Shown here: positions 1,020 to 4,309 of the stretch, piece after piece | Numbering within the stretch: the first letter of the stretch is position 1 | How the letters are laid out: each line of letters begins with the position of its first letter | NCBI GenBank assembly: GCA_017544185.1 | Contig: JAFYEQ010000316.1 | Location: 1 to 15,617 of the forward strand | DNA length: 15,617 nt | Source of the DNA: Oscillospiraceae bacterium | Lineage (GTDB): Bacteria > Bacillota > Clostridia > Oscillospirales > Ruminococcaceae | Reading direction: 5' to 3' | The notes under the pieces: generated by a model | Databases searched by the model: none | Seen by the model: the letters and a program-made list of their open reading frames with translations, nothing else | What the model was told of the DNA's origin: nothing | Translations under genes and position numbers: made by a program

Positions 1020-1106
1020 GATCCCTCCAAAACAAAAGAGCCGATGCTACCGCCGACCCCTGCACCAGCAGGAGCCCGCAGACGTCATCAGCTCGTGTGA
1101 GCGGTT

Positions 1107-1135
1107 CGATATCCATACGTTGATGTATGATATCG
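1107..1135 (-). other. Hairpin between pflA and the antiporter gene
   Basis: An inverted repeat pairs CGATATC with GATATCG and ATAC with GTAT, with one bulged base and a 6-nt loop. It lies 24 nt beyond the pflA stop. No run of T follows in the transcribed direction, so it is not a canonical intrinsic terminator. It may protect or process the 3' end of the pfl mRNA. The rest of 1020-1158 shows no gene. Confidence 0.4.
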
Positions 1136-1158
1136 GGGAGAACATCATTCCCCTTATG

Positions 1159-1917
1159 TTATGATCTTTTAGCCGCAAGACCGTCTTTAATACCCTGCAT
1201 GATCACATCTCGCGCGTGAGCTGCCTGCTCCGTGGTAAGAGGCGGTGTATCTCCGAGAGGGTACTCGAGCCCCAGGTTCTCGTACTTGACCTTGCCCATG
1301 TCATGGTACTTGAGCACGTCGAGAGCCTTGAGCGTCTTCAGTTCCGATAGGAACACGCCCAGACGATGGAGATACTCGTCGTCATACGTTATGCCCGGAA
1401 CAGTTACGTGGCGTACCCATATAGTCTTGCCCTTATCCGAGAGATAGCGCGCAAAGGCCAGTATGTTCTTATTGCTGTGGCCTGTGAGCTTCTTATGCTC
1501 CTCATCGTCGATATGCTTTATATCCAGCATGATAAGGTCAGTAGACTCCATCAGCCTGTCGAACACAGCTGTATCATCGGGATCGAAGGTGATGCCTGAA
1601 GTATCGAGGCAGGTGTGTATCCCCTTCGCCTTGGCCTTCTCGAACAGCTCCGTCAGGAACGCAGGCTGCATCATGGGCTCGCCTCCGGTGGCAGTGATGC
1701 CCCCGCTGCAGAACTCCTTGACACCGTCGTACATATCCAGTATCTCTTCCACTGTCATCTCTGTGCCCACAGGATCCTTCTTACTGTGCATAGTCCATGT
1801 ATCAGGATTATGGCAGTAGAGGCACCTCATAGGACATCCTTGGAAAAAGACGACGAACCGGATGCCCGGTCCGTCGACTGTACCAAAGGATTCAGTTGAA
1901 TGTATGAACCCCGTCAT
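1159..1917 (-). CDS. pflA: Pyruvate formate-lyase activating enzyme
   Basis: This is a radical SAM enzyme of the cytoplasm. It uses a 4Fe-4S cluster and S-adenosylmethionine to abstract a hydrogen from the radical glycine of pyruvate formate-lyase, switching the lyase on under anaerobic conditions. The 252-residue length is normal for PflA. The cluster-binding CxxxCxxC motif is at Cys28, Cys32 and Cys35 (FQGCPMRCLYCHN), preceded by the typical SFGTVDGPGIRFV. The GGE motif that contacts SAM is at 78-80 (TGGEP). The gene begins 3 nt after the stop of the small glycyl radical gene and has no recognisable Shine-Dalgarno, which suggests translational coupling. Here the radical glycine it must reach is on a separate 79-residue polypeptide, so the physiological substrate may be the small subunit alone or the two-subunit complex. 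Confidence 0.95.
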   Translation of the reverse strand: MTGFIHSTESFGTVDGPGIRFVVFFQGCPMRCLYCHNPDTWTMHSKKDPVGTEMTVEEILDMYDGVKEFCSGGITATGGEPMMQPAFLTELFEKAKAKGIHTCLDTSGITFDPDDTAVFDRLMESTDLIMLDIKHIDDEEHKKLTGHSNKNILAFARYLSDKGKTIWVRHVTVPGITYDDEYLHRLGVFLSELKTLKALDVLKYHDMGKVKYENLGLEYPLGDTPPLTTEQAAHARDVIMQGIKDGLAAKRS

Positions 1918-1920
1918 AGC

Positions 1921-2160
1921 TTACAGTGAAGCGTGGAACGTTCTGGAGATAACGTCGTCCTGCTGCTCCTTGGTGAGCTTGATGAAGTTTACTGCGTAAC
2001 CGGAAACTCTGATAGTGAGCTGAGGATAGTTCTCGGGATGCTTCTGAGCATCGAGAAGGGTCTCACGGTTGAACACGTTAACGTTGAGGTGATGACCGCC
2101 CTTGACGGAATAACCGTCGAGCAGACCAATAAGATTATCTATCTGCTGTGCATTTGCCAT
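1921..2160 (-). CDS. Stand-alone glycyl radical domain (small subunit of split pyruvate formate-lyase)
   Basis: This 79-residue protein corresponds over nearly its whole length to the C-terminal glycyl radical domain of pyruvate formate-lyase. It reads [11 protein letters not shown] at 7-17, [18 protein letters not shown] at 21-38, and [15 protein letters not shown] at 45-59, with the radical-bearing glycine at Gly54. It ends [18 protein letters not shown], the normal PFL C-terminus. An ATG at 2160 is preceded by AAGGAGT 7 nt upstream. The gene lies directly between the truncated PFL large subunit (58 bp upstream) and pflA (3 nt downstream). It resembles the E. coli GrcA/YfiD rescue protein, which supplies a fresh glycine to oxygen-damaged PFL. 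Here, however, the partner PFL has no radical domain of its own, so I infer that this is an obligatory subunit. It would be activated by PflA and would donate its radical to the active-site cysteines of the large subunit. Confidence 0.93.
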
Positions 2161-2183
2161 AGTTATTACTCCTTTCGAAGGTC

Positions 2184-2209
2184 ATGTGCCGTGCCGATGC
2201 ACGGCACAT
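2184..2209 (-). other. Perfect 11-bp hairpin between the two PFL subunit genes
   Basis: ATGTGCCGTGC pairs perfectly with GCACGGCACAT around a 4-nt loop. It begins 9 nt after the large-subunit stop and ends 23 nt before the small-subunit start, leaving the Shine-Dalgarno free. There is no T-run behind it, so it should not terminate strongly. An mRNA processing or stabilising element, or a partial terminator setting the ratio of the two subunits, is the likely role. Confidence 0.75.
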
Positions 2210-2218
2210 ACCATAAGA

Positions 2219-4309
2219 TCACTTGAGAGCGTCAAGATCGAGGTCGCCAACGAATACGCCGCTGTCCTTACCGAGGGCATCGGGGATGATGGAGAAGGTA
2301 TTGGAGATACCGTCCTGAGCGTTGGAGAACTGGAGCTTGGATACGGAAGAGAGAGATGCGGATGCACCGTGAGTATCTCTGCCGTGCATGGGGTTAGCAC
2401 CGGGAGCGAGAGGCTGGCCCTGCTTACGTCCGTCAGGAGTGGTACCCGTCTTCTTGCCGTATACCACATTGGATGTGATGGTAAGGATAGAAGTGGTGGG
2501 GAAGCCGTTCCTGTAGATGTGCTGTTGACGGATCTTATCCATGAACTTGTTGAGGATCATCTGTGCGATCTCATCAACACGGTCGTCATCGTTGCCGTAC
2601 TTGGGGAAGTCGCCCTCTACCTCGTAATCAACGACAACATCCTTAGCGGTGTAGAGCACATTGCCCTTCTTGTCCTTGACCTCGATATCCTTGCGGATGG
2701 GCTTTACCTTAGCGTACTTGATAGCGGAAAGGGAGTCTGCGACGACGGAGATACCTGCGATACCGGTAGCGAAGTATCTTCTTACCTCTCTGTCATGGAG
2801 AGCCATCTGAAGAGCCTCATAGCAGTACTTATCATGCATGTAGTGGATGATGTTCAGTGTATTTACATAGAGCTCTGCGAGCCAGTCCATCATATCGTCA
2901 TACTTCTCCATTACCTCATCATAATCGAGATACTCAGAGGTGATGGGTCTGTACTTGGGAGCTACCTGAGCGCCGCTGATCTCATCGACACCGCCGTTTA
3001 TAGCGTAGAGCAGGCACTTAGCGAGGTTAGCTCTTGCACCGAAGAACTGCATCTCCTTGCCGACTCTCATGGAGGATACGCAGCAAGCGATAGCGTAGTC
3101 ATCGCCGTGTGTAACTCTCATCAGCTCATCGTTCTCATACTGGATGGAAGAAGTGTTGATGGAGATCTTAGCGCAGTATCTCTTCCAGCCGTTGGGAAGT
3201 CTGGGAGACCAGAGCACGGTGAGGTTGGGCTCGGGAGAAGTGCCCAGGTTCTCGAGGGTATGGAGATAACGGAAGGAAGTCTTTGTTACGAGAGATCTGC
3301 CGTCGATACCGATACCGCCGAGGGACTCTGTTACCCACTGGGGGTCGCCGGAGAAGAGGGAGTTATACTCGGGAGTCCTTGCGAAACGAACGAGACGGAG
3401 CTTCATGATGAAGTGGTCGATGATCTCCTGTGCCTCTTCCTCTGTGATCCTGCCGAGCTTGAAGTCTCTCTCGAAGTATATATCGAGGAAGGTGGAGGTA
3501 CGGCCGAGGGACATAGCTGCACCGTTCTGATCCTTTACAGCGCCGAGATAGCCGAAGTATACGGCCTGTACTGCTTCCTTAGCGGTAACAGCGGGCTTGG
3601 AGATATCGCAGCCGTAGATCTCAGCCATCTTCTTGAGGTTCTCAAGAGCCCTGATCTGCTCAGCGATCTCTTCTCTGCAGCGGATCTTGTCATCGGTCAT
3701 AGGACAGGTATAGAAAGCCTTCTGCTCCTGCTTGTCCTTGATGAGCCTGTCAACACCGTAGAGTGCTACACGGCGATAGTCGCCTATGATACGGCCTCTG
3801 CCGTAAGCATCGGGGAGACCTGTGAGGATGTGAGAGGTCCTTGCTGCTCTCATCTCGGGAGTATATACATCAAATACGCCAGCGTTATGGGTCTTTCTGT
3901 ATTCACTGAATATCCTGTGCATCAGGGGATCGGGAGTGCGGCCGTTCTGCTCGAGAGCATTCTCAGCCATCCTAAGTCCACCGTAAGGCATGAAAGAACG
4001 CTTGAAGGGCTTATCTGTCTGGAGACCTACTATCTTCTCGAGATCCTTCTCGATATAGCCTGCGGGGTGAGAGGTGAGAGAGGATACGACGTTATTGTCC
4101 ATGTCAAGTACGCCGCCTGCTTCTCTTTCCTGCTTAGCGAGCTCCATAACATCGTCCCAAAGCTTCTTGGTAGCATCTGTGGGACCTGCGAGGAAGCTCT
4201 CATCGCCGTCGTAGGGAGTGTAGTTCTTCTGGATGAAGTCTCTGACATTGATCTCGTCGGTCCAGTGACCGCCGACGAAGCCTTCCCATTCCTGTGGCAT
4301 CTGCTTCAT
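2219..4309 (-). CDS. pflB: Pyruvate formate-lyase large subunit, lacking the glycyl radical domain
   Basis: This protein is the catalytic body of pyruvate formate-lyase (formate C-acetyltransferase), which converts pyruvate and CoA to acetyl-CoA and formate. It is 696 residues, against about 740-760 for usual PFL. The active-site pair is Cys409-Cys410 ([11 protein letters not shown]). Arg426 ([10 protein letters not shown]) sits at the spacing of the pyruvate-binding Arg435 of E. coli. The late PFL motif [20 protein letters not shown] is at 637-656. The chain continues to [17 protein letters not shown] (666-682), adds 14 residues (ending LDLDALK), and stops where E. coli PFL goes on into the glycine loop domain. 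That domain is supplied by the next gene, in another frame. The start ATG at 4309 has AGGAGG 8 nt upstream; an ATG 5 nt earlier stops after two codons. The active-site residues and the rest of the body are intact, so this is not a degraded copy. Confidence 0.97.

Follow-up and report, generated by a model that had tools for sequence, protein, structure and literature searches.

The stretch of DNA analysed in this study (hereafter, the window) comprises 15,617 nucleotides of a contig from an Oscillospiraceae bacterium and carries, on its reverse strand, a pyruvate formate-lyase (PFL) locus in which the catalytic body and the glycyl radical domain are encoded by separate genes. The body gene (2219..4309, reverse strand) encodes the catalytic barrel in 696 residues, from which the glycine-loop domain is absent. 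Its product scored 1098.9 bits against TIGR01255 (curated cut-off 994.2), covering positions 1-668 of the 744 in the profile, and the active-site pair Cys409-Cys410 (codons at 3080..3085, reverse strand), described as intact in the original prediction, is present and invariant in an alignment of 54 PFL rows. The body ends in DALGKD followed by 14 residues and a TGA stop codon; this C-terminal tail (2222..2263, reverse strand) contains the motif [VI]F.G[DE] and is predicted to be disordered in the isolated body.

The second gene (1921..2160, reverse strand) encodes a radical subunit of 79 residues holding the whole glycine-loop domain, in which the radical glycine, Gly54 (codon 1999..2001, reverse strand), lies within RVSGYAVNF and corresponds to E. 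coli Gly734. The Pfam family Gly_radical is divided over the two window proteins, with positions 2-49 in the body and 50-106 (of 106) in the small protein. When the small subunit is aligned to residues 683-758 of E. coli PFL, its segment HHLNVNV (2074..2094, reverse strand) corresponds to strand beta10 (strand name taken from passages of PMC8683613). The body aligns up to about residue 680 of E. coli PFL and the small protein from residue 683, so that the small subunit contributes the tenth barrel strand in its entirety and the cut falls in the linker between barrel and radical domain, where it had been predicted. Unlike a single-chain PFL1, the window body has no radical glycine in its own chain, the glycine being in the separate 79-residue gene. 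The locus fits the split PFL group as defined here, i.e. a body that ends before beta10, a [VI]F.G[DE] tail and an adjoining radical ORF.

The two genes are separated by 58 nt containing AAAGGAG, and the Shine-Dalgarno-like site of the small gene, AAAGGAGT, is located at 2168..2175 (reverse strand), which bears out the claim that this gene has its own ribosome-binding signal. Three nucleotides past the small gene lies pflA (1159..1917, reverse strand), encoding a PFL-activating radical SAM enzyme of 252 residues that scored 285.8 bits against TIGR02493 (cut-off 231.75). The order of body, separate radical subunit and pflA had been proposed with coordinates that proved right, as judged from the ORFs and the division of Gly_radical. 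A fluoride riboswitch (RF01734, 43.8 bits) was also detected at 1072-1161 (reverse strand), directly upstream of a cation/proton antiporter gene (PF00999; 3-1019, reverse strand) that runs off the window end.

The genome from which the window derives is a fragmented MAG of 393 contigs and 70% completeness. A search for a full-length PFL or a second radical domain in this genome returned one body and one radical domain, and exactly one of each is present in a 100% complete genome of the same genus (G090).

Distribution of the split locus

The window small protein was searched against a family sample of 148 genomes, 104 of which gave matches. A standalone radical ORF was identified in 24 of the 148, the window's own included, in frames of 82-138 residues at 75-100% identity (75-97% for the other 23 ORFs); the remaining matches sit in longer frames, save a 36-residue fragment (G112) and a 127-residue frame of 32% identity (G144). 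In all 24 split loci the body stops before the radical domain at the same place and adjoins the radical ORF. Since this body end is constant while gap lengths and relative frames differ among the 24 loci, a frameshift was dismissed and the split taken as real, as had been proposed. Most of these genomes (22 of 24) have a completeness of 90% or higher, with contamination of 5% or lower. Each holds one PFL1-type body, and no full-length PFL, other PFL1-type body or further PFL1 radical domain was found in the 24. Extra large matches in G019, G025, G065 and G137 (frames of 828-861 residues) are assigned to other glycyl radical enzymes because their radical domains share no more than 41-50% identity with that of the window; G025 and G137 also gave one weak short match each.

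In the order, class and phylum samples, which partly overlap, a standalone ORF was found in 17 of 245 genomes (at 76% identity or more), 19 of 341 genomes (the 17 new ones all having a truncated body upstream) and 2 of 398 genomes, respectively. Among named GTDB loci, the best 80 of 564 relatives comprised 72 with a same-strand body just upstream of the small gene, of which 71 are split and one (L159) is fused; in the other eight no body adjoins the small gene, one of these (L226) lying at a contig end. In two split loci (L171 and L175) pflA is located between the body and the small gene. The titles of the named loci include Ruminococcus bicirculans, R. flavefaciens, Eisenbergiella tayi, Lachnoclostridium, Lachnospiraceae, Erysipelotrichaceae and Candidatus Gastranaerophilales, with many MAGs, and some of the split loci carry the names of strains, such as R. 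bicirculans 80/3 (L178) and E. tayi DSM 26961 (L186). The complete split loci number 104 and represent 100 distinct bodies, as four genomes carry two locus names each; in 103 of the 104, the radical gene has a Shine-Dalgarno-like site ahead of it.

The layout is conserved in 24 of 148 family genomes and in 71 of the 80 named loci, and split PFL is a genuine and repeatedly encountered form of a central enzyme, made of two subunits. The further suggestion that the split is the only PFL architecture held for the 24 split family genomes but not throughout, as two of 27 named genomes (G783 and G801) have both a split and a full-length PFL.

Phylogeny of the PFL bodies

A tree was constructed from 109 bodies, 56 split and 53 full length, with L061 left out as short. 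The split rows group with three full-length rows (59 rows together; support 90, unstarred), and the tree favours one old fission. Inside this group, eight tail-less or nearly tail-less bodies of 665-695 residues (Amygdalobacter, Breznakia, Traorella and others, represented by protein records only) are supported at 99 (starred), and the tailed group (99, starred) includes the full-length rows L159, L057 and L230. A split clade excluding these three, which was picked for the AU test after a first tree, was rejected (p 0.0007). The linkers of fused L159 (SNMLFVNDTPDVTCGCEEVTCAVDANDQQIENL) and L057 (DSDIFIGCDNCSFGTTGAIGVQTELPPSLRVQNL) hold apparent remains of the split tail, and for this reason both sequences are most simply read as re-fusions. 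L230 has an ordinary short linker and a long branch; for this row a clean re-fusion and a sister position are both possible. The tail motif was present in 95 of 104 split bodies versus none of 56 full-length linkers, the tail-less body group being left out of this count. Two other full-length PFLs (L285 and L286), with radical domains 81-82% identical to that of the window and no linker scar, may likewise be re-fused enzymes or else sister to the split group.

The intergenic region and a third small protein

In the window, the gap between the body and the radical gene contains a hairpin with a 12-bp stem and no T run (2183..2210, reverse strand; -24.3 kcal/mol, z -4.45), a possible mRNA processing or stability element. 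Hairpins of different sequence occur in the close relatives L034, L035 and L153. A conserved hairpin or terminator was rejected as a feature of the gap, as the hairpins are not conserved and one followed by a T-rich run is found in only 3 of 104 gaps. There was no signal for a separate promoter (2 of 78 gaps at p<=0.05), and no known RNA was found in the gap in 12 sources. Over the 104 split loci the gap has a median length of 239 nt and shows codon-like periodicity; taking it as non-coding was abandoned, as it turned out to hold a coding third gene in most of them.

This third ORF, judged by eye, is present in 70 of 104 split loci (68 of 100 distinct) and encodes a protein of 60-97 residues by longest reading frame. 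Values of dN/dS were 0.04-0.26 in 14 of 17 pairs of relatives, with dS saturated in three. The N-terminal half is related to the helix and strand of the radical subunit (hhalign probability 95.4 over 34 columns; E 1.9e-8, for a single comparison), and residues 3-30 of the NCBIfam family GrcA3 matched the third protein in four of six cases at E 6e-4 to 0.04. The C-terminal half carries conserved cysteines, C...AC..P, and no glycine loop. Six of the proteins were tested against Pfam and none matched a family above cut-off, two weak matches being at chance level; 2278 database proteins match the third protein, and the named ones in the best 120 are entered as 'hypothetical protein'.

In the family sample, matches to the third protein at E<=0.001 occurred in 35 of 148 genomes, the weak ones falling in radical domains, and strong matches (E<=1e-12) were found in 17 of 24 split genomes versus none of the 124 others. 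The strong match in G111 is unlinked from PFL. The seven split genomes without a strong match comprise six with Cys-tailed bodies and the window's own. A further 25 genomes included G786, where the copy is unlinked, and G945, where it comes after the radical gene; the genomes of fused L159, L057 and L230, together with G777 and G787, gave no match to the third protein beyond radical domains.

Twenty-eight of the 104 split loci lack the third ORF and have at least two cysteines in the tail of the body. Part of these Cys tails is related to the end of the third protein (hhalign probability 95.1, E 3.3e-8, 21 columns, with 16 of 27 distinct tails used), and no locus of the 104 has both elements. 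Six have neither (the window, L035, L161, L151, L171 and L175); L035 and L161 are one genome, which holds an unlinked copy of the third protein, as does the genome of L171. A search of the window's genome, at its 70% completeness, returned neither element; the body of its congener G090 is Cys-tailed. The tree carries six changes between the third-ORF and Cys-tail states, and a sign test on the two was not significant with four starred independent pairs.

The third protein is a conserved, unannotated and new component of the split operons of most relatives and is absent from the window. We infer that most split PFLs possess a Cys element as a regular component, provided by a separate protein or by the body itself. 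As a tentative and rather doubtful reading, the third protein or Cys tail could be a dummy radical domain, the N-terminal half copying the helix and beta10 and occupying the barrel slot when the radical subunit is undocked; its C...AC..P cysteines would then guard the active-site Cys pair, or would sense oxidation and free the slot for a fresh radical subunit. If so, split PFL would be a three-part machine in most lineages.

Additional radical genes

More than one standalone radical gene (two or three, each at no less than 79% identity) was found in 11 of the 27 named genomes (G789, G790, G793, G794, G796, G798, G799, G800, G805, G806 and G807), a proportion that is not a frequency because the 27 were picked partly for an unlinked small gene. 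These 11 hold one split-type body where it is complete, the body being in pieces in G794 and G798. The orphan radical genes retain the glycine loop and, in the eight genomes with alignable ends, are identical to the operon copy at 71-76 of 78 residues; the three Gastranaerophilales pairs, left out of this range, gave 3-7 of 78 when end-aligned, a figure that fails because the ends differ in length.

Thirteen orphans were identified, of which 12 could be judged for their neighbours (L226 is at a contig end). A Crp/Fnr-family regulator lies within about 600 bp of eight, upstream on the same strand in L180, the first copy of L185, L200, L208, L224 and L228, and divergent in L298 and L299 (Gastranaerophilales). 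No such regulator adjoins the second copy of L185, L195, L300 or L301. The eight represent five or six lineages, as L180 and L185, and likewise L200 and L228, are close relatives. For E. coli yfiD, passages of PMC3181329 describe control by FNR, ArcA and PdhR and a rise on micro-aeration; those of PMC8683613 call YfiD constitutively expressed. Near two orphans and their regulators, a groEL-like gene was also recognised by eye (L180:552-2186 and L224:1525-3150), which suggests a stress neighbourhood, and the Gastranaerophilales orphans L195 and L299 adjoin a D-2-hydroxyacid dehydrogenase gene.

The original prediction regarded the radical domain as a replaceable cartridge. The extra copies in 11 of the 27 chosen genomes and the regulators beside 8 of 12 orphans give this idea indirect support, and at the level of sequence they favour, rather than prove, replaceable spares; the orphan copies may be such spares. 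Spares are, however, not general because the 24 split family genomes hold a single radical gene each.

Other glycyl radical enzymes

Two other glycyl radical enzymes are apparently split at the same domain border, one into 752 and 98 residues with an activase-like ORF following (L261:5-2584) and one into 711 and about 87 residues (L262:135-2620); these splits are probably independent. A glycyl radical enzyme body in the genome of Ruminococcus sp. YE71 (L249) contains one in-frame TAG (GSSAS*GADKNG), representing a nonsense change or a sequencing error. A second radical-domain fragment of 36 residues and 76% identity lies about 0.9 kb past a full-length PFL (L063, approximately 3772-3873; G112:C66).

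Discussion

Many anaerobes use PFL as a main route from pyruvate, and oxygen destroys the radical of the enzyme. The window pair most probably constitutes a working two-subunit PFL, a reading to which we assign a probability of roughly 85%. The body would hold the substrate site and Cys409-Cys410, and the small subunit would supply the helix, the tenth barrel strand, the glycine loop and the C-terminal helix, its docking into the barrel rebuilding a normal PFL. The catalytic cysteines, the radical glycine and the activase are all conserved. The window body resembles E. coli PFL by fold (TM 0.90 by query length), and a structure predicted for the fused L159 from a 45-row alignment (pLDDT 86.9, pTM 0.90) superposes on E. 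coli PFL with a TM of 0.94 and 1.8 A over 770 columns; we infer that the window's own pair docks.

The window enzyme shares with E. coli PFL (PflB; TIGR01255; PDB 2pfl and 1h16) a 62% identical body, the Cys pair, the glycine loop and the activase type, but the E. coli enzyme is one chain where that of the window is cut between residues ~680 and 683. Its small protein resembles GrcA/YfiD (TIGR04365; PDB 6owr) in beta10, the glycine loop and the C-terminal helix. YfiD has a disordered N-terminus of 60 residues, as described in PMC8683613; it works beside a full-length PFL, whereas the window protein is the sole radical domain of its body. According to the same paper, the YfiD radical is undetectable without cleaved PFL; by this analogy the proposal that PflA may activate the free small subunit is not supported, and PflA most likely sets the radical on Gly54 within the complex.

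The small gene could instead be a GrcA-type spare that only mends oxygen-cleaved full-length PFL, an interpretation that agrees with the NCBI name (the small protein passes the cut-off of NF038360, the autonomous cofactor GrcA3, at 163.8 versus 158 bits) and with the Crp/Fnr-type regulators adjoining the orphans, given the FNR control of yfiD reported in passages of PMC3181329. It is nevertheless improbable, and contradicted for the operon copy, as full-length PFL is absent from the 24 split family genomes, the E. coli-type GrcA cut-off is missed (TIGR04365, 98.7 versus 170 bits), and the adjoining body, lacking both beta10 and the glycine, would be inactive alone. The genomic context is that of a subunit, and the split is already partly visible in databases under the name of a spare part. 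The fragmented state of the window's assembly would be compatible with a frameshifted normal PFL, either a pseudogene or an assembly artefact; the recurrence of this arrangement in all 24 family loci and in 71 of the 80 named ones, among them loci bearing strain names, the quality of 22 of the 24 genomes and the Shine-Dalgarno-like sites in 103 of 104 loci leave this next to no likelihood.

A less clear-cut alternative, possible although unlikely, is that separate genes serve dosage, allowing the radical subunit to be made in excess of the body, and that oxygen damage is secondary. The strong hairpin in the window, the differing hairpins in three close relatives and the extra radical genes of the chosen genomes are in line with this; the absence of a promoter signal from the gaps, the lack of hairpin conservation and the rarity of a hairpin with a T-rich run count against it. 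Returning to the two-subunit enzyme, oxygen cleavage at Gly54 would cost only the small subunit, the radical part being a separate short gene product, and the extra radical copies of several relatives would act as spares.

A body and small part with the same division of labour have been engineered as tPFL:YfiD. According to passages of PMC8683613, oxygen-cleaved E. coli PFL also undergoes clipping at 690-695; when YfiD is combined with tPFL, a laboratory cut at residue 695, the complexes reach wild-type activity once activated, yet bind and activate poorly: binding was undetectable and activation 32-fold below that of cPFL:YfiD. They differ from the natural split of the window in the place and laboratory origin of the cut. 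Given the poor binding and activation, a bare cut would have to be compensated for by other changes, among which the conserved tail may count; by analogy with the weakened binding of YfiD in E. coli, the tail may guide docking.

Two entries listed as 'Formate acetyltransferase' (PDB 38la and 38lb) are solved PFL bodies which, like that of the window, are without a radical domain, none being matched in either; both are absent from a fold search of a structure library ending April 2026. Entry 38la, which matches a natural 666-residue protein of Amygdalobacter nucleatus, is without a tail, unlike the window body, and the tail of 38lb has Cys. Passages of PMC12208373 place A. nucleatus among formate-producing species and report that the PFL inhibitor hypophosphite reduces its growth; if its only PFL is split, this would be physiological evidence that split PFL works. 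No paper on the split architecture was among the matches listed in open-licence literature, and the passages of PMC13252398 and PMC11528403 do not describe it.

A natural, separate and replaceable radical subunit would allow the spare-part idea to be put to a direct test with no need for engineering and would offer biotechnology a two-component glycyl radical enzyme. It would also predict how such anaerobes outlive brief exposure to oxygen.
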